Below the pieces are notes generated by a model, which worked only from the letters and a program-made list of their open reading frames with translations, did not search any database and was not told where the DNA came from. From Actinomycetota bacterium (lineage in GTDB: Bacteria > Actinomycetota > Humimicrobiia > Humimicrobiales > Humimicrobiaceae), in the NCBI GenBank assembly GCA_003155275.1, contig PMCC01000169.1, positions 2,348-15,337 on the forward strand: a stretch of 12,990 bases of DNA, read 5' to 3'. A program made the translations under genes and the position numbers. Below are positions 1,600 through 11,469 of this stretch, one piece after another. Positions within the stretch are counted from its first letter, which is position 1. Each line of letters begins with the position of its first letter.

Positions 1600-2085
1600 T
1601 TAATTTTTAATGCTTCTTAATCTTGAGCTTGCAGCGGAATTTATTTTTATGCTTTCAATCCCAAACATTTTTAAAAAATAACAATCAACCTTTGCCTGGC
1701 AACTTACTTGAAGGTATTTCGGGTTTGTACTTTCATCAAAGACACCGCAGTTAAAATTATTTACACTGAAATCGGGTTTTTGAAGATAATTTCTGTTGAA
1801 ATATTCCATAGCAATTTCCTGCGCCCTTTGCATATCAAGTCGTGTAAAACCTGATTGCTGCGCTGTTAAAACCTCTATTTCTTTTGCGGCCTCCTCAGCA
1901 GAAACCATACAGGCTTTGTTGATTTCTTCCTTATAGACAAAAGCCCTGCCGATGTCAATCGTCATTCCAGTTATCATCATAAACAACGGCATAAGAATGG
2001 CAACAGTTATAAGAACAGCCGCTGTCTCTTTTTTAAAATAGTTATTTAAATAATTGTTTTTTAGTTTCAAAGCTTTTATTTCCAT
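1600..2085 (-). CDS. tadG: TadG-like minor pseudopilin / Tad-domain protein
   Basis: This 161-residue protein is encoded by the last gene of the pilus operon. After a basic N-terminus, residues 20-42 form one hydrophobic segment (ETAAVLITVAILMPLF...), followed by the TIDIGRAFVYKEEINKA stretch (about 43-59). This is the typical N-terminal Tad domain of TadG-like proteins, 'V-x-LP..GL.vD.Gr.y..r..lq.aaDaaA'. The remaining extracytoplasmic part has two cysteines (NFNCGVF, QVSCQAK) that could form a disulfide, plus a third in DCYF. TadG proteins are often several hundred residues long with a vWA domain; this one keeps only the N-terminal module, so it is a short TadG/TadF-type pseudopilin. It starts 25 bases after the repeat-protein stop, with a weak AGG about 8 bases ahead. 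Its role is probably pilus initiation or the tip complex. Confidence 0.7.
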   Translation of the reverse strand: MEIKALKLKNNYLNNYFKKETAAVLITVAILMPLFMMITGMTIDIGRAFVYKEEINKACMVSAEEAAKEIEVLTAQQSGFTRLDMQRAQEIAMEYFNRNYLQKPDFSVNNFNCGVFDESTNPKYLQVSCQAKVDCYFLKMFGIESIKINSAASSRLRSIKN

Positions 2086-2110: not shown

Positions 2111-3520
2111 TTAAAACATTATCTCTCCGTAACTGTTCCCACCAAGCCATCTTTCAGGATCTGACAATGTACCTTCAAGATTAATATTTATTGAATTAAA
2201 GCCATTGACCGGATTACTAAAGTAAACATGAATAGTCTGGCCGCCCTCGGCGTAAAGAAATACATGAAGTATGCTGTCTTCATTGCCTGCAAAATCAAAA
2301 AGTGTGAAAGTGCTTATAAAGCCTGCTAAAGATGGGCTGACATTACCGTTATAAATAACAATCTTGTTTGTGCCCTTATTTTTATATCTGGCAACGTCTT
2401 GAAAAATCTTTGCACTGATGATTTTTTTGGGAACTTGTCCCGGCATAAGCTCGGCAGAGTCAATTTCCCAGTCAACTCTTAAATTCATTCCACATTCACT
2501 ACCGCCATTATTCTTGTGCCATCTGGTAAAAATATACTGCGGATCTTTCCTTACTATCACTTTTCCATGAATAGGTTCTTCATAAAATCCGTCTTTTACC
2601 CAAAATTTCTCGGGTTCATAACGGCTTGTGTCCACCCATTCCTTTTCATAATAATCCTTCCAGTAACCGGTGGCTACTCTGTATGAAGTATCGACCCAAT
2701 ATTTGCCTGTTCTTGTTTCCCAATGCGAAGTATCAGCCAGATATCTTACAGTGTAATTTTCCCAGTATCCTGAGCTAACCATAACACTATAAGATTCCTG
2801 AACTGTTACAAACTTATACAGAAAAAGATATTTGGTTGCATAAACGTGTCCGCCTCGGGCAGGCCGATAATCAATAACATAAATGGCCGCCATGTACTGC
2901 GCTCCGTTATATGAAACTTTCTGCATGCCACGCGCCTGAGAAGCAAACGAGTAGACACTCCAACCATAACTGTCTGTACCGTTTATAACAGCAAAATTTA
3001 CATGTACAATTTTTTCAACAGTTCTATATCTTGTCTCCCAGTGTGAAGTGTCGACATATCTTTTTGTAACATAAGACTGCACGCTTTTTTCTTCAACCCA
3101 TACTTGGTATTCTCCGGTCTTATAGTAACCCTGGTTTACCATATATGAAGTGTCAACATATCTTTGTTTTGTTAAATCCCGATAGTAACCATCTTTTTTG
3201 TAGATCATCCTGGTTTCCCAATGCGAAGTATCAACCCAGACCTGCTCACCAGGAGGGTTATCCAACTTTAACCATCCTTCATTTGACCCATATAGATCCT
3301 TCTCGAAAATTATGAAAGGCAGAAAAACTGAAAAAAGGTAAAACAGCATCAATAAAAACGGAACAAGTATAATCTTTAATCTTCGCAGATAATCCCTTCC
3401 AGTAAAATTTTTAAAGTTTTTTTTCATATAAAGTTCCGAATACAGTTCTGAAAACCTATCAAAATCCGGATTTTCTGTTAGTATTCTTATTTTTTTAAAC
3501 AAAAAAATGTTGCGGCCCAT
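2111..3520 (-). CDS. Tad-locus membrane-anchored protein with WVDTSHWETR-type repeats
   Basis: This 469-residue protein belongs to no family I can name. Residues 1-48 are polar and basic, one strong transmembrane helix spans about 49-72, and the rest should lie outside the membrane. Six copies of a D-T-S motif occur at D97, D123, D157, D263, D277 and D297, most in the context [YW]-V-D-T-S-[HY]-[WY], three as full DTSHWETR. They alternate with G-Y-[YW] modules (111-113, 131-133, 251-253, 285-287 and GFY 311-313). The array is interrupted by a different, Tyr-rich segment at about 170-245. Residues about 320-469 look like a separate beta-rich domain. It has no prepilin leader, so it is not a pilin. 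An AAGGAG overlapping the tadE stop precedes its ATG, and only 6 bases separate the genes, so it is translated with the pseudopilins. A wall-facing adhesin or pilus anchor is a plausible role, by inference only. Confidence 0.75.
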   Translation of the reverse strand: MGRNIFLFKKIRILTENPDFDRFSELYSELYMKKNFKNFTGRDYLRRLKIILVPFLLMLFYLFSVFLPFIIFEKDLYGSNEGWLKLDNPPGEQVWVDTSHWETRMIYKKDGYYRDLTKQRYVDTSYMVNQGYYKTGEYQVWVEEKSVQSYVTKRYVDTSHWETRYRTVEKIVHVNFAVINGTDSYGWSVYSFASQARGMQKVSYNGAQYMAAIYVIDYRPARGGHVYATKYLFLYKFVTVQESYSVMVSSGYWENYTVRYLADTSHWETRTGKYWVDTSYRVATGYWKDYYEKEWVDTSRYEPEKFWVKDGFYEEPIHGKVIVRKDPQYIFTRWHKNNGGSECGMNLRVDWEIDSAELMPGQVPKKIISAKIFQDVARYKNKGTNKIVIYNGNVSPSLAGFISTFTLFDFAGNEDSILHVFLYAEGGQTIHVYFSNPVNGFNSININLEGTLSDPERWLGGNSYGEIMF

Positions 3521-3526
3521 TTTGAC

Positions 3527-3958
3527 CTACTCCTTTTCTTCTATTCTCATTGCAGACATACCTTTTATATCAGTGAAACCTTTTACAGTGCCTGGAAATC
3601 GTATAATTCCAGAAAAAAACACAGGTGTGCTATAAATCACTTCTACAGTTATCAGGGTTCCAGGATTTGTGTCAGGAATATTTATTGCTGCCTTTAGCCT
3701 TTCTCCAAACTTCCAACCCGGCAGACTGCCGTTTGCATAGTTTTCAATCGCAGTAGTAGCTGAAGAGTAAGGTTCTTCGGAGAGTGTTGCAGTTCTTGCC
3801 GCTTCATAAGCAGCAGAATTTACAGCGATTTTTGCATTGAGTATAAACCCAAATTGAACTATTCCTGAAATAAAAAGCAGAAGTACCGGCAATATAAGTG
3901 CAAGTTCAAGAAGGACATTACCATTTTGATTATAAGAGACATTTAATATTTTTTTCAT
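3527..3958 (-). CDS. tadE: TadE-like minor pseudopilin
   Basis: This is a 143-residue pseudopilin. Residues 1-13 form a short basic leader ending in Gly13, followed by NVLLELALILPVLLLFISGI. The Glu at +5 after the Gly is the signature of class III prepilin peptidase (TadV/CpaA) substrates, and the hydrophobic N-terminal helix (about 14-36) plus the NAKIAVNSAAYEAAR segment is the TadE domain. The remainder is a small periplasmic-type or wall-facing domain. I start at ATG 3958, with a GGTGGGGTG stretch upstream. A longer frame from TTG 4009 would add a very basic 17-residue extension with no pilin-like character, and I reject it. A strong AAGGAG lies about 25 bases before the ATG with no usable start next to it. 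TadE normally works with TadF/TadG in pilus initiation. Confidence 0.85.
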   Translation of the reverse strand: MKKILNVSYNQNGNVLLELALILPVLLLFISGIVQFGFILNAKIAVNSAAYEAARTATLSEEPYSSATTAIENYANGSLPGWKFGERLKAAINIPDTNPGTLITVEVIYSTPVFFSGIIRFPGTVKGFTDIKGMSAMRIEEKE

Positions 3959-4012
3959 CTTAACACCCCACCGTTTTGACTTTCTCCTTCTTCTGCTATC
4001 CCGTAACAAAAC

Positions 4013-4276
4013 TTAAAGGCTGTTTACAATCGTGTTAAAAACACCCTGCAGCTTGTCGCCTAAAGCAGTTATCACCCCAATACATACGATTACAACAAGT
4101 GCAACATAAAGAGCTATTTCTATAAGAGTTGCCCCTCTGCTGTCTGTAAAATTAGAAAGCAGATTCTTTACCCATACCTTGGCATTGACTGCAGGAATGA
4201 CTTTTTTTAAATTTGCAGATGTTTTCTTAAGAACGGAAATTGTTCTTTTTTTAGAAATTGACAGATTGGCCCGCAT
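4013..4276 (-). CDS. flp: Flp/Fap-type major pilin precursor
   Basis: This is an 87-residue prepilin. Residues 45-87 read as a classic Flp pilin: SRG|ATLIE, then a hydrophobic helix (about 53-70), then ALGDKLQGVFNTIVNSL, matching 'ALG..l...Fn.i...l'. Cleavage after Gly48 would release a mature pilin of only 39 residues, normal for Flp. Two things are unusual: the leader is about 48 residues and strongly basic, where Flp leaders are usually about 10-25, and the usual E-Y pair at +5/+6 is E-I. The gene has the best ribosome binding site of the operon (AGGAGG at 4282-4287, 5 bases from the ATG) and a 204-base gap upstream, consistent with separate, high expression of the structural subunit. The prepilin peptidase is not encoded here. 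Confidence 0.9.
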   Translation of the reverse strand: MRANLSISKKRTISVLKKTSANLKKVIPAVNAKVWVKNLLSNFTDSRGATLIEIALYVALVVIVCIGVITALGDKLQGVFNTIVNSL

Positions 4277-4480: not shown

Positions 4481-5443
4481 TTATCCAATTATGATTTTTA
4501 GCTGCGGCAGTAACGGCATAAGGAAAATCAGCAGCATCGGAATAAATATAAATATAAATATTATCAGTATGAGATTACTTTCAAGCTTCTCTGCTCTCAT
4601 TTTAAGGTTATCCCTCTGATTATTTCTGTAAACTCGGGAAAGATCCTTTAGAACTTCTTTTATAGGATTTCCAATAACTTCAGACTGATAAATCACTTTA
4701 ATAAAACTGTAAAACTCTGCGCAATAAGACATTTTTCCAATGCAGTCAAATGCTTCCTTCCGTGTCACACCTTCAAGGATTTTAATGTTGTATATCCTAA
4801 ATAATCCAGAAATTTCACCGTTAAGATTCCTTAAAATATATGCAATGGTTTCATCCATTGTGAGGCCGGCTTTTATAAGAGAAGCCATCAAATCAATAAT
4901 TTCAGGCAGCTCAATTAAGATTTTTTTTGATATGTTTTTGGTTTTACCTTTCACTATTTCAGAAGGTAGGAAATAAAAAACTGCGGCTGCCAGGGCGGCA
5001 TATAAAAGTAGGTTTATGGATAAGAAAAATCCTACCACCAATACCAACAAAAACACACTTACAGATAAAATAATCCTAAAAATATAAAATTCTTCTATTG
5101 TTTTCATCCTGATACTCAAAACACTCATCCTGCCGCGGCTTTCAAATAGTAGTTTCAGCCTTGAGGCAAAACTACTTCCACCAAATCCTGTATTATTATC
5201 AAATCCTGAATTACTATTAAATCCAGTATTGCTCTTGAACTTAGTATTGCCCCCGGGTACCTTAGAGCCATAAAAATCATTCCGGGTATCACTATTTCTC
5301 CCCCGATTTTTAAAAATACCACCATTTTCATAAAACCTTAAAATGCGTGGCTTTAGACTGGCAGAATGCCTGAACAACACATGGAGCACGATAAAAACAA
5401 AGACTGATATTGATACTGAAAGAATTATTATAAAAGTATTCAT
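4481..5443 (-). CDS. tadC: TadC, inner-membrane platform protein of the Tad pilus (T2SSF family)
   Basis: This 320-residue protein has an N-terminal membrane helix (about 2-23), a polar linker, two central hydrophobic segments (about 121-142 and 144-160) and a C-terminal one (about 289-316). Between them lies the T2SSF (GspF-type) cytoplasmic domain, with IELPEIIDLMASLIKAGLTMDETI at about 177-200, the usual 'lp..id.la..l.aG.s...al' signature. TadC pairs with TadB to form the platform on which the CpaF ATPase drives pilin polymerisation. The linker (about 64-92) is unusual: it contains a tandem NTGF-type repeat rich in N, G, F and S that is not part of the family. The gene starts 8 bases after the tadB stop, so the two are translationally coupled. 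Confidence 0.88.
   Translation of the reverse strand: MNTFIIILSVSISVFVFIVLHVLFRHSASLKPRILRFYENGGIFKNRGRNSDTRNDFYGSKVPGGNTKFKSNTGFNSNSGFDNNTGFGGSSFASRLKLLFESRGRMSVLSIRMKTIEEFYIFRIILSVSVFLLVLVVGFFLSINLLLYAALAAAVFYFLPSEIVKGKTKNISKKILIELPEIIDLMASLIKAGLTMDETIAYILRNLNGEISGLFRIYNIKILEGVTRKEAFDCIGKMSYCAEFYSFIKVIYQSEVIGNPIKEVLKDLSRVYRNNQRDNLKMRAEKLESNLILIIFIFIFIPMLLIFLMPLLPQLKIIIG
5183..5236. repeat. Three tandem 18-bp units inside tadC
   Basis: Three imperfect 18-base units lie at 5183-5200, 5201-5218 and 5219-5236; the first two begin AAATCCTG and the third AAATCCAG. On the coding strand they encode a six-residue unit of the type (S/N)N(T/S)GF(N/D). The repeat is in frame and lies in the cytoplasmic linker before the conserved domain. 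Confidence 0.8.
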
Positions 5444-5451
5444 ACTATTTT

Positions 5452-6417
5452 CTACCTGGCTTTTTCTGCAAGATTTACTATTCTGTTTATAATTAAAAAT
5501 CCTGCAATATAACTTAATAAAGCATATATAAGCACTCCCAAACCGAAACCATTAAGAAGACTGTGGGCAAAATTTTTATTCAACAATGAGACTATGCATA
5601 CTACTACAACAGGAATAAGCATTATGATATATGATGTATATCTTGGCCCTGAGCTTAAAATCCTGATGTATGAGGATATACTTTTCTTTTCCCTTATGTA
5701 ATCAAGCTGATCCTTTAAGTATTCAATCAGGTCGACTCCTTTTTCGTTTGAGGCAATGAAACCTGATATCACCATCATGATTATTTCGCTTTTATTCCGT
5801 TCAATCATTCTAAACAGCGCTTCATTTAAGAGTACCCCCCTTCTTGTGTCTTCAACTACAGTTTCGAATTCACTTTTTAGTGGATCTTCAGCAATTTCAA
5901 GAGTCTTTTGGATACTTATAAGAACATTAGGGTTGGCATAAAGATTGCCGGTAAGATCTATTAGAAAACCTTCAAGTTGGTTTTCTTTTTTTTGAATCAT
6001 TTTCCTGCCTCTGATGTCGATAAAAATAAAGGCTGTAAGGCATAAAAATATTGAAATTGATATAAAAATCAGTATACCGTTTTTAAAAAATATGCAGACT
6101 ATAAAAATCAACGAGAGCGCCACAAGGAAAATAAGTAAGAAAGTAGCAGCATCGACTCTGATGTTGTTTTTAACAAGCCGGCTGTTTAGCCTGTCCAGTA
6201 TGGTTTTGCGACCAGCTGATGCGTAGATATTTTTGCCGTTTGCCAAACCCTGTTTTTTACTATCAAAGAAAGACCTTCGGCTTACATTATTTGAGTAGTC
6301 TTCTTCGGGATAAGTCCTTTTTAAACGGCGCAGCAGCCAATTTTCCCGGGAATTTACATAGAGTGCCGCAGCACAGAAGATATATAAAAATCCCAGTAAA
6401 AAAATCATTGAAATCAC
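5452..6417 (-). CDS. tadB: TadB, inner-membrane platform protein of the Tad pilus (T2SSF family)
   Basis: This 321-residue protein has an N-terminal membrane helix (about 3-22), a basic cytoplasmic linker, two hydrophobic segments (about 91-111 and 113-134), a T2SSF domain (about 147-262) and two C-terminal hydrophobic segments (about 262-280 and 289-311). The domain begins QLEGFLIDLTGNLYANPNVL (147-166), matching the TadB 'q...al..la..l.aG.sl' motif, with DTRRGVLLNEAL (190-201) in the middle. The apparent start is a GTG at 6415-6417, which overlaps the cpaF stop as GTGA. An ATG three codons further in (6408) is an equally possible start, as no clear ribosome binding site distinguishes them. 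It is the partner of TadC and the docking site of CpaF. Confidence 0.88.
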   Translation of the reverse strand: MISMIFLLGFLYIFCAAALYVNSRENWLLRRLKRTYPEEDYSNNVSRRSFFDSKKQGLANGKNIYASAGRKTILDRLNSRLVKNNIRVDAATFLLIFLVALSLIFIVCIFFKNGILIFISISIFLCLTAFIFIDIRGRKMIQKKENQLEGFLIDLTGNLYANPNVLISIQKTLEIAEDPLKSEFETVVEDTRRGVLLNEALFRMIERNKSEIIMMVISGFIASNEKGVDLIEYLKDQLDYIREKKSISSYIRILSSGPRYTSYIIMLIPVVVVCIVSLLNKNFAHSLLNGFGLGVLIYALLSYIAGFLIINRIVNLAEKAR

Positions 6418-7643
6418 AACAGTTGGGTTAATTTGTAATCACCACTTTCATTGAGATTGCTATCTACAACAGCAATCTCGCTTATTTTCCTATTTTTAAT
6501 ATTGTTGTTTTCATCCTTTTCGCATTCAAGAAAAATAACCGCATCAACCGCTCTTGAGACGATTTTCTTTACAATACTGCTGCTCAAATTGGATCTGTAT
6601 TCCATGGCAAACATTTCAATCCTTAAAAGAGCATCGTATGCAGAATCAGCATGAATTGTGCCAAAGCTTCCCCTGTGGCCAGTATTTAATGCCTGCAACA
6701 TCTGGTAAGCGGCCATGCTGTTTCTTACCTCGCCAACAATTATCCTGTCAGCTTTTAGCCGTAAAGTCTCAAATAATAATTTCTCCTGGTTTACCTCATT
6801 ATCTATTTCCCTTGCTTTTGGCCTTGTTGTCAGCATTCTGACATATGGGTGGCTGTTGAGTTTGATTTCCGGAATATCCTGGATAAGGCTTATTATCTCA
6901 TTTTTATCAATAAGTTTTGCAAGGGTATTAAGCAAGGTGGTTTTTCCGGAACCCATTGAACCAGCAATAAGAATATTTCGCTTTTCTTGTACGAATTTTT
7001 TAAGCATCCGCATCGTTTCAGCTGAAAACATTCCAAGTTGAAACTGATCCTCAAGCTGGAAATCAAGACAGTTAAAAACTCGTATTGTTATGTATATCCT
7101 GTCTGATACAGGAGGTATTATTATCGAGCATCTGCTTCCGTCATAAAGCTCGGTATTTAAAAAAGGGATACGCTGGTCAACATTCTTTCCTGAACCAAGC
7201 TTTATTCTGTCGATGATAAGATTGACTTCATCCATGTTTTTAAAGACTTCACCAAGATAATTCTTAACACCATTTTTAATTACAATCATTTCCTTGTCCT
7301 GGATAAAAATATCTGTTATTGTTTTATCAGTAAGATACCTTTCAAGTATGCCCAGTCCAAAGATCTCTGAGACCGCTTTTTCTATTAATTCTTCATCGAT
7401 TTTGATTACAGCGTAAGGATATTTATGGCTTAGCAGTTCTGAAAAAAATATAAATATTTTTTCCCTGCACTCATTTCTGTCTTTAAAATTATCTGAAAAA
7501 AAACTACTGTCTTTTTTAATCTTTTCTGTTAAAAGACTCAGCAAATCCTTTTCAAGCTTGTATGAAATCGCTTCGACTTTACCTACCGTACCAATCTCAT
7601 GTAAATTCGTTTCACTTCTTCCAGTTTTAAGATCAGTTGACAT
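6414..7643 (-). CDS. cpaF: CpaF/TadA secretion ATPase of the Tad pilus
   Basis: This 409-residue cytoplasmic hexameric ATPase of the GspE/VirB11 superfamily energises Flp pilus assembly. An N-terminal domain (about 30-200) includes the FGLGILERYLTDKTITDIFI block (95-114) typical of CpaF. The P-loop is GSMGSGKTT (228-236), the Walker B region is IIVGEVR (301-307), and the conserved 'GH.GS..T.HA' loop is GHRGSFGTIHA (322-332). I place the start at ATG 7643. It has AGGAG 6 bases upstream and overlaps the parA-like stop by 11 bases, indicating translational coupling. The open frame runs 68 codons further upstream, but that extension lies entirely inside the preceding gene and has no CpaF-like sequence. 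All catalytic motifs appear intact. Confidence 0.93.
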   Translation of the reverse strand: MSTDLKTGRSETNLHEIGTVGKVEAISYKLEKDLLSLLTEKIKKDSSFFSDNFKDRNECREKIFIFFSELLSHKYPYAVIKIDEELIEKAVSEIFGLGILERYLTDKTITDIFIQDKEMIVIKNGVKNYLGEVFKNMDEVNLIIDRIKLGSGKNVDQRIPFLNTELYDGSRCSIIIPPVSDRIYITIRVFNCLDFQLEDQFQLGMFSAETMRMLKKFVQEKRNILIAGSMGSGKTTLLNTLAKLIDKNEIISLIQDIPEIKLNSHPYVRMLTTRPKAREIDNEVNQEKLLFETLRLKADRIIVGEVRNSMAAYQMLQALNTGHRGSFGTIHADSAYDALLRIEMFAMEYRSNLSSSIVKKIVSRAVDAVIFLECEKDENNNIKNRKISEIAVVDSNLNESGDYKLTQLL

Positions 7644-8373
7644 CAGGAACTCCTTTAAATAATCCATTTTCAATAATTTTGCCGACCTGCCTGTAGAAAC
7701 CTGACCTTTGTATGGACGATGAGCCTTCAGCAAAAACAGATTTATTGAAATTTTTCTCAAAAGGCAGGAAACCCTGCACCGGCAATCCGGAGATCCTTGC
7801 AAAATCCCATAACTTAAAGCAGTCTTTAATGGTTTTTTTATTAACAAGAAGATTGATTATATTTTTTGAAATGAAAAATCCTTTTGTCAGAATATCATGA
7901 TAATTTATCACCCTGTTGAAGCTTTCAATTGAAGAATCGGTGACAAGCAATATTTTTTTTGACTCTGAAAGCATATTTATAGTCATTGAGTTTAATACAG
8001 TCTGCGTATCGGTGATTACATTTGTATAATTCATTTTGATGACATCTAGCAGTAAAAACAGTTCCTCTTTTTTTACAGATTCGGCGGCAAGAGGGTTTTG
8101 GAGTCCCATCAGGATATCAAGATTGCAGTTAATATTTTTTACATATTTGTTGAGGCTGTCCGGATACCTCAAGGCCATTTCAAGTGAATTTTTCTTGTCA
8201 ATATCAAACAAAGTACCAAAATCACCAGGCGAGCAGTCCAACTCAAAAAGTAATGTCGGCTCCTTTAATTTTTGGCTGAAATAACACCCCGCAGCAATTG
8301 CTATAGATGTTTTACCTACCCCACCTTTATTGGAAACTATGGATATTATGTTTTTAGCCACACTTGCCTTCAT
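7633..8373 (-). CDS. ParA/MinD-type P-loop ATPase of the Tad locus
   Basis: This 246-residue ATPase has a complete deviant Walker A, KGGVGKTS (16-23), followed by LLFELDCSPGDFGTLF (41-56). Those are the switch elements of the MinD/CpaE branch of the ParA superfamily. It shows no DNA-binding domain and no obvious C-terminal amphipathic helix. The tadZ-like protein of the same operon carries an altered Walker A, so this gene may supply the ATP-hydrolysing partner; two such ATPases in one Tad operon is worth noting. It has a good AGGAG 8 bases before its ATG and is preceded by a 184-base gap. It overlaps cpaF by 11 bases. The likely role is positioning or regulating the pilus machine; the family is sure, the role inferred. 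Confidence 0.85.
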   Translation of the reverse strand: MKASVAKNIISIVSNKGGVGKTSIAIAAGCYFSQKLKEPTLLFELDCSPGDFGTLFDIDKKNSLEMALRYPDSLNKYVKNINCNLDILMGLQNPLAAESVKKEELFLLLDVIKMNYTNVITDTQTVLNSMTINMLSESKKILLVTDSSIESFNRVINYHDILTKGFFISKNIINLLVNKKTIKDCFKLWDFARISGLPVQGFLPFEKNFNKSVFAEGSSSIQRSGFYRQVGKIIENGLFKGVPDVN

Positions 8374-8557: not shown

Positions 8558-9568
8558 TTATTCCATAGAAACTTTTTCCAAAAAAATCTTATATTTATCT
8601 TCCTTTGTAATCCTTGAGATGACCGGCGCTTCCTTAAGGCTGCATTTTATAAAAATACACCAGCTGCTTTTATTTTTAGCAGCAATAAGTCCGTTGCTTT
8701 CTGTATCTGTTTTCTTAATATCAACTATTTTCAGGTTTTTTATAATTATCTGGCCATCAATTATCATGATATTTTCAGCGAGGGAAAAACTGTTTAAATC
8801 TATAATGCTTTTGCCTGTGCTACCGGCGGTTTCGTCTGGTGTACTGCCTGTATTTTCATCTGTAGTCACAATTGCAGTTTCACTTGTAGTGTCTCCTTTA
8901 GTTTCAACTGAAGCGCTTATAGTAGTTTCAGTTGCTGTGCTTTCTGCACTTTCGCCTGATGTACTTTTTAAAGTTTCATTAGATAAGCTGTCTGAGGCTT
9001 TGTTTGACGAAGTGCCTACAGTTTCATCCGATATATTACCCAAAGTTATTTCAGGAACTTTGGGTTCGGCAATAGTCACACTGTTTCCATAAGCACCTGA
9101 AGTGACCCCACTGACGGCAGAATAGTAATTGCTGTCTTTTTCCTTCTCAGTAGAAACTATACTGATGTTATTGCCTATCTTAAGCTCGTCCATAAGCGGC
9201 TCCTGATAATTTAAATTTATTGCCATCAGGACTTCGCCTTCTACCATCTCTTCAAACATACCTTTTTCGGAGTCCTCGCCGCTAAAAAGTCCGGTGGTCA
9301 AAGGATCGCCTTTTTTTCTTTCAGCTTTTATTATCATTCCTATTATTCCAGTTTTCTCAGAAATATAGCCCTCGGGAAGAGCCTGCTTAAAGTAGGGAAG
9401 CATTCTGATATCTTTTTCTTCTATCTTTGAATTTTTATCAATGTCCCCTGCTGCAACTGCTATATTAATTCTTTCAAAATAATTATTCAGCAATAAATAT
9501 GTGCCGGCTCCAAGTATGACTGCACCCGCCAAAGCAAGTGCTAGGTATTTTTTACCTGAAAATGCCAT
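8558..9568 (-). CDS. cpaB: CpaB/RcpC-like Flp pilus assembly protein with SAF domain
   Basis: This 336-residue protein has an N-terminal transmembrane anchor (about 7-28). A SAF/CpaB domain follows (about 35-95), opening INIAVAAGDIDKNSKIEEKD and containing LPEGYISEKTGIIGMIIKAE, the usual 'v.vA..di..G..i...dl' and 'G...r..i..Ge' pattern. A second strand-rich part (about 110-140, GEVLMAINLNYQ) is the RcpC-like extension. Residues about 180-254 are a low-complexity linker rich in S, T, E and D with recurring S(D/N)ET-type units. A conserved tail follows (about 255-336). CpaB proteins are envelope components of the pilus export path; in a monoderm it would face the wall. The linker is longer than I would expect for the family. 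The start is 41 bases after the tadZ stop, with a weak ribosome binding site. Confidence 0.85.
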   Translation of the reverse strand: MAFSGKKYLALALAGAVILGAGTYLLLNNYFERINIAVAAGDIDKNSKIEEKDIRMLPYFKQALPEGYISEKTGIIGMIIKAERKKGDPLTTGLFSGEDSEKGMFEEMVEGEVLMAINLNYQEPLMDELKIGNNISIVSTEKEKDSNYYSAVSGVTSGAYGNSVTIAEPKVPEITLGNISDETVGTSSNKASDSLSNETLKSTSGESAESTATETTISASVETKGDTTSETAIVTTDENTGSTPDETAGSTGKSIIDLNSFSLAENIMIIDGQIIIKNLKIVDIKKTDTESNGLIAAKNKSSWCIFIKCSLKEAPVISRITKEDKYKIFLEKVSME

Positions 9569-9609: not shown

Positions 9610-11469
9610 TTAGTCGCATGTGAGAGATTCCATTACTTTTTTCGTAAACCCCTGCATATCTTTATTATTTGAAAAATCGCACTCTTTAAAATCTGATTTT
9701 CCCGATAAAAAGGAATTTTCGTTGATGCTTACAATTTCTTTTAAACTGATAAATTCGCTGATATTGTTTTTTATAAAGCTGTGGTTGTTGTTATTTTTGT
9801 TTTTATTTAAAACAAGTATTTTTTCCATATCACTATATATGAATCTTTTATTTATACTAGCAAGCCTACCTATACTTCCGGGTGTATAATCTGATACCAT
9901 TATGGTAAGGTCAGCCATATCCAAGACTCCAAAAAATATATCATTTATCTGGTTCGGCAAATCAAATATTAGCAGATGATACTTTTTCCTCGCAACATCA
10001 ACAATGCTGTAAATGTCCTGCATATCAAGTTTTTTTGTAAGATCATAAGAGGGCGGGGGCTGTAATATATCAAAATGTCCCTTGAAATTGATAACAGAAT
10101 TTTCCATTGATGCTCTGTTGTAGCCTTCAGTAAAAATCACCATGTTAGGACTTTTTGGCATTCCGAGATAGTATCCGATGTCACTTCCTCCTTCAGAAAA
10201 ATTAAGGTCTATAAGCAAAGTCTTAAGTTTCCTGAATTCATAAGCCAGGTAAAGCGACAGGAAAGTACTGCCTACGCCTCCTTTGGCTTTTACAAATACC
10301 ATTATTTTTTGTTTTATGGTAACCACCTTCCCCGGCCCCGACATCAGGCTTTCATTTTCCCTACCGGTATTATCCGTTAAGTGCTGTTTGCATAAGCTGT
10401 CATTTTTCTTAACATATTCATGCATATTCTGGTTTGGTTTTCTTATTTCTTCATTATCCTCATTATCCAAAAAGCCATCATTGGCTTCCTGAGCCACTTC
10501 TTTCCAGAAATCATTATATAATTGGGATTGTTTACTTTGCTCTTTATCGGGTTTCATACTTATATTCTTAATGTTTGTGGGTCCAATACCTGCATACTCA
10601 GTGTTTGCAGTCCCCTTATCTGCAGCCTTAATGCCTGAGATCCCGGTGTTTTCATGACCGGTGTTTGTGTTCTGAGCAATAACTGACCTGGTGTTTATAT
10701 CTTCAATGTCTGTAAGCTCGCTGTTTTCGTCCTTATTGTTTGTATCACTAATTTTTGCAGTATCAGTGTTTACTCCCTTAACACTTGCAACCAGAGTACT
10801 TTTATCTCCAAAGTCAGTGGTCCCAGTGTTTGTGATTTCAAAACCTTCAGCCCCATTGTTTATGTCCCAAAATTTTGCAGCTTCTGTGCTTGTGTCCTCA
10901 ATGTTTGTGTCTTCAATGTTTGTGCCCCAAATGTCTGGATTTTTCTTACCAACGGATTTTTTTAAGGCATGTTTTTTATTACTAGGCTTTATGTTTGCAG
11001 TTATATAATCCACCGAATTGCCAGTACCGGCATTTGCACCTGGCCTTGGCCTGAAAATCTTTTCAAAGGAATTCATTAGATGCCTGCCGGAACCTGATTT
11101 TTTCAGAGTGATTTTTTCATCATATTCTTTTTTAATAATGCTTAAAACTTCTTCTCTGTCAACTGGATAGCTTAGGTCTTTTCCCATTACGTAGACTTTA
11201 ACCTTTTTTCTTTCAGCTTTTTTAGCAATTGCTTCCAGGCCACCTATTTTTGGACCGATAATAATTATGTCGATTTTTTCATAATCAATTATAAAATTTA
11301 CTGCAAACTCACTGCTTAAATTCAGGAAATTATAATTTTCCTTAATATCTGACAGGGCCTCAAATGTTTCCCACCGGGTATCTGCGATGATGATATTGAA
11401 ATTCTTATTTCCATTTCCTGATCCATTTACGGATCTTTTATTTTTTCCGAAAATATTTAAATCTGTCAT
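9610..11469 (-). CDS. tadZ: TadZ/CpaE-like localisation protein, with long T/N/D-rich linker
   Basis: This 619-residue protein is encoded by the first gene of the pilus operon. Residues about 24-120 resemble the atypical receiver domain of TadZ/CpaE (alternating strands NIIIAD, DIIIIGP, KVYVMG). Residues about 180-305 are a low-complexity, degenerate repeat rich in N, T, D and E. Residues about 386-610 are a MinD/ParA-like ATPase domain with VFVKAKGGVGSTFLSLYLAY (391-410), LLIDLNFSEGG (418-428) and a Walker B-like HLLIFDLP (498-505). The Walker A reads KGGVGST where active ParA proteins have KGGVGKT, so the phosphate-binding lysine is replaced by Ser401; TadZ-family proteins are known to have atypical P-loops. 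TadZ normally marks the cell pole or other site where the pilus is built. No Shine-Dalgarno precedes the ATG. The length is well above the usual 370-500. Confidence 0.85.
   Translation of the reverse strand: MTDLNIFGKNKRSVNGSGNGNKNFNIIIADTRWETFEALSDIKENYNFLNLSSEFAVNFIIDYEKIDIIIIGPKIGGLEAIAKKAERKKVKVYVMGKDLSYPVDREEVLSIIKKEYDEKITLKKSGSGRHLMNSFEKIFRPRPGANAGTGNSVDYITANIKPSNKKHALKKSVGKKNPDIWGTNIEDTNIEDTSTEAAKFWDINNGAEGFEITNTGTTDFGDKSTLVASVKGVNTDTAKISDTNNKDENSELTDIEDINTRSVIAQNTNTGHENTGISGIKAADKGTANTEYAGIGPTNIKNISMKPDKEQSKQSQLYNDFWKEVAQEANDGFLDNEDNEEIRKPNQNMHEYVKKNDSLCKQHLTDNTGRENESLMSGPGKVVTIKQKIMVFVKAKGGVGSTFLSLYLAYEFRKLKTLLIDLNFSEGGSDIGYYLGMPKSPNMVIFTEGYNRASMENSVINFKGHFDILQPPPSYDLTKKLDMQDIYSIVDVARKKYHLLIFDLPNQINDIFFGVLDMADLTIMVSDYTPGSIGRLASINKRFIYSDMEKILVLNKNKNNNNHSFIKNNISEFISLKEIVSINENSFLSGKSDFKECDFSNNKDMQGFTKKVMESLTCD
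10570..10930. repeat. Degenerate repeat tract encoding the TadZ linker
   Basis: Over about 360 bases the plus strand repeatedly shows TGTTTGTG-like cores at irregular intervals of roughly 15-50 bases. On the coding strand these give N-T-N/D and I-E-D-T peptides. The clearest pair is CAATGTTTGTG copied 15 bases apart near 10898-10923 (protein NIEDTNIEDT). The units are in frame and strongly diverged. Confidence 0.6.

Follow-up and report, generated by a model that had tools for sequence, protein, structure and literature searches.

A modular DTSH-head protein encoded among Tad pilin genes, a candidate tip protein of the pilus

The subject of this analysis is a gene that stands among the pilin genes of a Tad (type IVc) pilus locus and that we compare here with the closest described systems. 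The locus lies in a stretch of 12,990 nucleotides (the window) of contig PMCC01000169.1 from an Actinomycetota bacterium of the family Humimicrobiaceae (GCA_003155275.1), and the gene encodes a protein of 469 amino acids (aa) which we call the DTSH-head protein. Papers are cited throughout for excerpts of their text. In type IVa pili, PilY1/PilC proteins are described as having a signal-peptide-type N-terminus, a variable N-terminal head and a conserved C-terminal domain, and as being encoded among minor pilin genes (PMC7541494, PMC13190605); in Myxococcus, PilX, which lacks Glu5, is placed beside PilY1 at the tip (PMC7541494). The tips of Tad pili in Myxococcus, and in others by structural models, are described as consisting of minor pilins with variable distal domains, and complexes of minor pilins have been proposed to tailor such tips (PMC12075869). 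For CpaL, the prediction is a minor pilin that carries a fused vWA domain (PMC12607857, PMC13170226).

The DTSH-head protein and its relatives resemble PilY1/PilC in having a variable head and a conserved C-terminal domain and in their place among minor pilin genes, and the N-termini of relatives look signal-peptide-like. There are also differences: the beta-propeller C-terminal domain of PilY1 was not found (no Pfam match at E 1 or better) and an immunoglobulin-like (Ig-like) domain is predicted instead, the neighbours are Tad and not type IVa minor pilins, and Pfam gave neither a vWA nor a DUF4114 match for the window protein. On account of the missing propeller and the Tad neighbours, we place the protein outside the PilY1/PilC family. 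TadG, KilN and CpaL likewise have a variable distal domain encoded beside Tad minor pilin genes (PMC12075869, PMC12607857); these, however, are pilins whose N-terminal alpha1 helix and distal domain form one chain, whereas the DTSH head belongs to a protein of its own that lacks a classical pilin site. Membership of this group was rejected as well (a classical prepilin peptidase site before an alpha1 helix, GxxxxE, is found in 0 of 18 proteins). Because the layout is that of PilY1 and the locus is Tad, but neither the PilY1 propeller nor the classical pilin site is present, we file the protein as a PilY1-like arrangement and not under the PilY1 or TadG families. No description of such a protein was found among the matches listed in the open-licence literature, which is not proof of novelty.

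A constant C-terminal domain under different heads

The protein is modular: its C-terminal domain is found under other heads, and the DTSH head is found on another C-terminal part. The C-terminal 157 residues make up a domain in which K, P, H, R, P and N columns are invariant (alignment of 22 sequences); it is predicted to be a beta-sandwich and aligns with Ig-like folds (AlphaFold, VIA-align). Searched for alone, this domain occurs in 21 of 396 Actinomycetota genomes, in 5 of 398 genomes of the phylum of Thermoanaerobacter wiegelii, and in 8 of 24 of its order. In the Tad locus of genome G409, the same slot holds a 1089-aa protein with the same C-terminal domain, no DTSH repeats, and a PG_binding_1 domain at residues 324-379 (1.9e-21); its other parts look propeller-like and CARDB-type-repeat-like by eye (Pfam gives only WD40 at 0.024, below the cut-off). 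Other forms include a 604-aa protein with another head, 4.4 kb from Tad genes (G411), a 955-aa protein that has ETSP repeats, lies 387 bases from tadE and is truncated by the end of the contig (G707), and a 433-aa protein with a Ser-rich linker, close to a contig end with no Tad gene in view (G480). In G005, a second, divergent Tad-like locus (L040) encodes a protein in which the DTSH head is joined to a different C-terminal part and this C-terminal domain is missing. The original prediction had pointed to residues 90-315, where a beta module is indeed predicted; it missed the two-part layout, with the head swapped and the constant 157 residues mostly outside that range.

Two of these loci deserve a further remark. 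The G409 Tad locus with the peptidoglycan-binding head is present twice (L110, L111), in opposite orientation and with 1089-aa proteins that read alike. The Tad-like locus of G005 (L040:1-11838) also contains a weak SAF match, a T2SSE ATPase, a protein with weak zinc-ribbon matches and a helix-turn-helix protein.

The turn repeat and the N-terminus

DTS is found six times in the window protein, at residues 97, 123, 157, 263, 277 and 297, exactly where the original prediction had placed it, as compared to a mean of 0.095 and a maximum of 2 in 2000 residue shuffles. The [YW]VDTS[HY][WY] context claimed for these sites holds at D97 and D157 (2 of 6) and fails at the other four. GY[YW] sites are present too, but they are not separate modules alternating with DTS: both are one element, a hairpin turn, because 211 of 215 turn spacings are even and the AlphaFold model has a two-residue strand break at all ten turns (98-99, 109-110, 124-125, 129-130, 158-159, 249-250, 264-265, 278-279, 298-299 and 309-310). 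The ten turns of the window protein were counted with a single pattern covering DTSH-type and xxGY-type sites (shuffled heads: mean 0.5, maximum 5), and their spacings are 12, 14, 6, 28, 92, 14, 14, 20 and 12, all even. Counted over 21 proteins with that of the window among them, turns at most 26 residues apart have an even spacing in 211 cases and an odd one in 4, as compared to 23 even and 20 odd in shuffled heads.

Even spacing of two-residue turns would be expected for an antiparallel meander with a fixed side-chain register. AlphaFold predicts an antiparallel head, which bears out the anticipated tandem beta module, and the head is likely a regular ladder of aromatic hairpins, i.e. a long antiparallel beta-meander with many Trp and Tyr. 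The Thermoanaerobacter repeat has an almost regular length of 12 residues, and VWVDTSHWETRK-type units alternate with VWVKSGYWKTEK-type units. The DTSH-head protein has no significant family in Pfam, NCBIfam or PHROGs (best in PHROGs: a holin model at E 0.099, nothing else).

At the N-terminus, relatives have a small residue directly after the hydrophobic core, followed by an acidic residue or Gly (e.g. AYA-GDW, LNA-ETR, IFA-EEE). All 23 N-termini read by eye fit this small-residue pattern, 6 of them with AxA proper. Since about 45 residues precede the hydrophobic stretch of the window protein and LYG-SNE follows it, cleavage of this protein is uncertain. The single transmembrane helix originally described corresponds to a real hydrophobic stretch (core at residue 50), but its equivalent in the relatives is signal-peptide-like, making the label of membrane protein doubtful; the sequences suggest that the DTSH-head protein is probably exported. 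No GxxxxE was found at or before the hydrophobic core in any of 18 family proteins checked, the window's included, while the motif is present in 15 of 15 distinct Flp sequences and in 20 of 27 TadE proteins of the upstream type. It is also absent from the downstream minor pilins (0 of 19, with the Gly before the core kept in 16 of 19 by eye), so this check is a test of the classical pilin site alone. A sortase-anchored adhesin was ruled out: there is no C-terminal LPXTG with a hydrophobic tail, and the protein ends, by eye, in the conserved beta domain and a terminal Phe.

These N-termini and the PG_binding_1 domain bear on the function first proposed, a pilus-associated adhesin or a wall-facing anchor. 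The latter would be a base component held in the membrane by the hydrophobic segment. By threading or binding peptidoglycan, its head would lead the pilus across the wall, in place of the outer-membrane parts that monoderms lack. Such an anchor would account for PG_binding_1 in one head on the same C-terminal domain, after an N-terminal hydrophobic segment without obvious cleavage site, and for the long stretch ahead of the window protein's hydrophobic segment. We consider it unlikely, given the signal-peptidase-like placement of a small residue behind the hydrophobic core of the 23 relatives (by eye), the absence of a wall-binding domain from the window protein (Pfam), the existence of Tad loci without the gene, and the strong differences between heads, which a conserved gate would not need. 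Of the two proposals, the pilus-associated adhesin appears the likelier and the anchor, despite PG_binding_1 in one head, the weaker.

Linkage to Tad genes and distribution of relatives

Using profiles built from the window's own Tad proteins, we annotated the loci of DTSH-type genes. Of 42 tabulated loci, L072 and L143 are second copies of a listed contig, leaving 40 distinct ones; L036, just a fragment beside a minor pilin, yields no row. Not included are L111 in G409 and L115 in G412, both second copies in their genomes, as well as scan loci already present under G handles. A same-strand Tad gene is found within 6 kb at 32 of the 40, so the recurrent Tad linkage that was predicted is observed. 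In 19 of the 40 (window included) a minor pilin gene directly follows the DTSH-type gene, overlapping it or at most 104 bases away; the overlap in nine of these holds as the frames are drawn, start codons being putative. Upstream, tadE lies within 140 bases in six loci (L022, L023, L024, L026, L035 and L047); in others an additional gene of 205-250 aa stands between tadE and the DTSH-type gene, or the contig begins at this point. Downstream of the DTSH-type gene, a prepilin peptidase gene (PF01478) comes next in Thermoanaerobacter sp. A7A (L061). Several contigs break at or just ahead of the DTSH-type gene, which is expected for repeats. Several relatives have, immediately ahead of the DTSH-type gene, an additional gene for a 205-275-aa protein, which is absent from the window; these proteins have an N-terminal hydrophobic segment (L025:8807-9430, L031:6759-7490, L061:7731-8510) and no convincing Pfam match among those scanned.

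As a further alternative, the DTSH-head protein could be secreted to the surface or matrix, using the operon and perhaps the export route of the pilus without becoming part of it. Against this, the gene is directly adjacent to the downstream minor pilin gene in those 19 loci, and a passive cargo would have no need of one and the same C-terminal domain beneath every head found at Tad loci. We consider such a role quite unlikely, somewhat more so than a wall-facing one.

Within the window's family, 20 of 35 genomes have an orthologous TadB (E 1e-25 or better), and wherever the contig extends past tadE (11 genomes) a DTSH-type gene is present (11/11; G025 and G027 hold only the gene start before the contig ends, and in G009 the gene is in two frames). 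In the other 9 TadB genomes the contig ends before tadE or at most 0.9 kb after it. A blind count of the C-terminal domain against TadB gave 13 genomes with both, 7 with TadB only, 3 with the domain only and 12 with neither in the 35 family genomes (Fisher p 0.016); for the T. wiegelii order (24 genomes) the numbers are 6, 3, 2 and 13, respectively (Fisher p 0.02). The TadB-only genomes in these counts indicate that Tad systems without a DTSH-type gene exist.

Matches were found in 21 of 61 related genomes and in 23 of 396 genomes across the phylum (own genome counted in both), as well as in 8 of 24 genomes of the T. wiegelii order. A motif-pattern scan of 84,980 species (one genome per species) gave 26 loci, 20 of them with Actinomycetota-type titles; the remaining ones come from T. 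wiegelii, Thermoanaerobacter sp. A7A, Caldanaerobacter subterraneus, two Clostridia assemblies, and one Micrarchaeota-labelled contig (a putative bin label), with 13 SGYW/DTSH-type turns among the first 450 residues of a 1402-aa frame. Relatives are thus known from Candidatus Humimicrobiia, other Actinomycetota, Thermoanaerobacter and Caldanaerobacter. No relative was found by tblastn in 50,697 phage records or in plasmid records, and a phage structural protein, named originally as a possible unrelated assignment, was ruled out by the lack of any significant phage-family match (PHROGs) and of any tblastn match in the phage records. The single IMG/VR match is a lambda-type tail tip protein J with two DTSH/SGYW turns (L092:4047-7331), whose FNIII-A domain contains one hairpin of each kind, SGYW and DTSHWETR; in contrast to the DTSH-head protein, it is an otherwise unrelated phage attachment protein with just these two turns.

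The window itself contains a TadA-type ATPase, two T2SSF platform proteins, flp and tadE, which identifies a Tad (type IVc) pilus locus (Table 1). The transcription order is CpaE/TadZ-like, CpaB-like, TadZ-like, TadA, TadB, TadC, Flp, TadE, DTSH-head protein, TadE/TadG-like. The DTSH-head gene lies 6 bases after tadE and 25 bases before the second TadE/TadG-like gene, as originally described. Because the Pfam matches of the latter to TadE families are weak (PF07811 at 0.00044, below the cut-off; PF13400 at 0.06), the earlier name "tadG-like" is fair but loose. In relatives, the CpaE/TadZ-like and TadZ profiles match each other's proteins; in the window's CpaE/TadZ-like protein a long Asn/Thr-rich stretch precedes the ATPase-like domain. 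The host assembly (2.18 Mb, 178 contigs, 85% complete) has one copy of the DTSH-head gene, a second row at E 0.04 being taken as chance.

Table 1. Features of the DTSH-head gene and of the surrounding Tad operon (window positions)
Feature	Position	Strand	Basis and remarks
DTSH-head protein gene, 469 aa, ATG start	2111..3520	-	open reading frame list and translation
Probable Shine-Dalgarno AAGGAG, 9 bases ahead of ATG	3530..3535	-	read from sequence
Hydrophobic segment, residues ~46-72, ~45 residues ahead of it	3305..3385	-	hydropathy, core at residue 50
Head, residues ~94-315, predicted antiparallel beta-meander, ten DTSH/SGY-type turns	2576..3241	-	turn spacing and AlphaFold
Insert inside head, residues ~175-235	2816..2998	-	alignment; differs in relatives L030, L031, L038, L039
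C-terminal domain, residues 313-469, predicted Ig-like beta-sandwich, constant part of the family	2111..2584	-	alignment, domain searches, VIA-align
Second TadE/TadG-like minor pilin	1600..2085	-	without GxxxxE (Glu5); in the window no Gly ahead of hydrophobic core
TadE minor pilin	3527..3961	-	PF07811, 3e-13; GNVLLE prepilin-type site
Flp major pilin	4013..4276	-	PF04964
TadC platform protein	4481..5443	-	T2SSF; B/C names by operon order
TadB platform protein	5452..6417	-	T2SSF; B/C names by operon order
TadA ATPase	6414..7847	-	T2SSE; listed frame, putative start codon
TadZ-like ATPase	7633..8373	-	AAA_31
CpaB/RcpC-like protein	8558..9568	-	SAF domain (Pfam)
CpaE/TadZ-like protein, long low-complexity N-terminal part	9610..11469	-	AAA_31 at 0.0022, below cut-off

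A candidate tip protein of the pilus

With a probability of roughly 0.5, we propose that the DTSH-head protein is an exported, head-swapping, non-pilin tip protein of the Tad pilus, analogous to PilY1 in layout. The conserved Ig-like domain would be the mounting piece that docks on the minor pilins encoded beside the gene, most likely on the downstream one, which lacks Glu5, and the N-terminal beta-meander head would extend from the filament tip and offer an aromatic surface for contact. Heads are exchanged between lineages, and because of this the pilus could be re-targeted with its mount unchanged. Linkage, modularity, the periodicity of the turns and the lack of a classical pilin site are observed; export by signal peptidase I, the docking partner, the tip position and adhesion are what we infer from these comparisons. 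The observation behind the original prediction was confirmed, and its interpretation is partly supported.

Several findings weigh against this proposal. Judged by substitutions within the family, head and C-terminal domain are conserved to a similar degree (48.7% and 51.8%, respectively), and with about 45 residues ahead of its hydrophobic stretch the window protein may remain anchored in the membrane. AlphaFold confidence for the head is mixed (whole model: predicted local distance difference test 72.9, predicted template modelling score 0.40) and the model of the Thermoanaerobacter protein is of low confidence (45.1) and unusable, so the head fold is something we infer. No Tad gene lies within 6 kb at 8 of the 40 loci (L041, L042, L043, L066, L074, L113, L116 and L141). 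Of these, L042, L043 and L066 are contigs of 3-6 kb and L113 is a remnant; L116 begins inside such a gene and L117, from the same genome, ends in the start of one, and these may be two ends of one gene. L141 encodes a 433-aa form with another head and has no Tad gene in view; the Micrarchaeota-labelled contig (L074:1-4207), likewise without Tad genes in view, encodes head repeats together with a Kazal domain in its 1402-aa frame. In the T. wiegelii order, 3 of 9 TadB-positive genomes lack the gene, and two genomes have the C-terminal domain without a TadB match: G406, with domain fragments away from Tad genes, and G412, where TadE and CpaE are encoded no more than 4 kb away.

In Myxococcus, pilus assembly is primed by PilY1 together with minor pilins (PMC7541494), and the position of the gene among minor pilins would also suit a priming factor, required to start assembly and with a head of little importance. 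This would leave the large, regular and exchangeable heads unexplained, and we regard it as improbable, the least favoured of the alternatives; it is also compatible with a tip protein rather than opposed to it.

More tentatively than the tip role itself, we suggest a new class of Tad-pilus tip, in which a separate exported non-pilin carries interchangeable heads on a constant Ig-like mount, one head being a new repeat fold. That fold would be a free-standing, single-layer beta-ribbon, an estimated 7-10 nm in length (14-20 strands, 0.48 nm each), in which strand-turn units of 6 to 14 residues follow one another and Trp lies on both faces. The turn parity rule defines a repeat that has no significant match in the family libraries searched, and the C-terminal domain can serve as a marker for finding more heads. 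If the new class is real, the Thermoanaerobacter versions make the tip protein testable in cultured species. With a front half of predicted aromatic hairpins and a back half that recurs with other front halves, this linked, head-swapping protein is a good and concrete candidate for the part with which Tad pili grip, an end that would be interchangeable.
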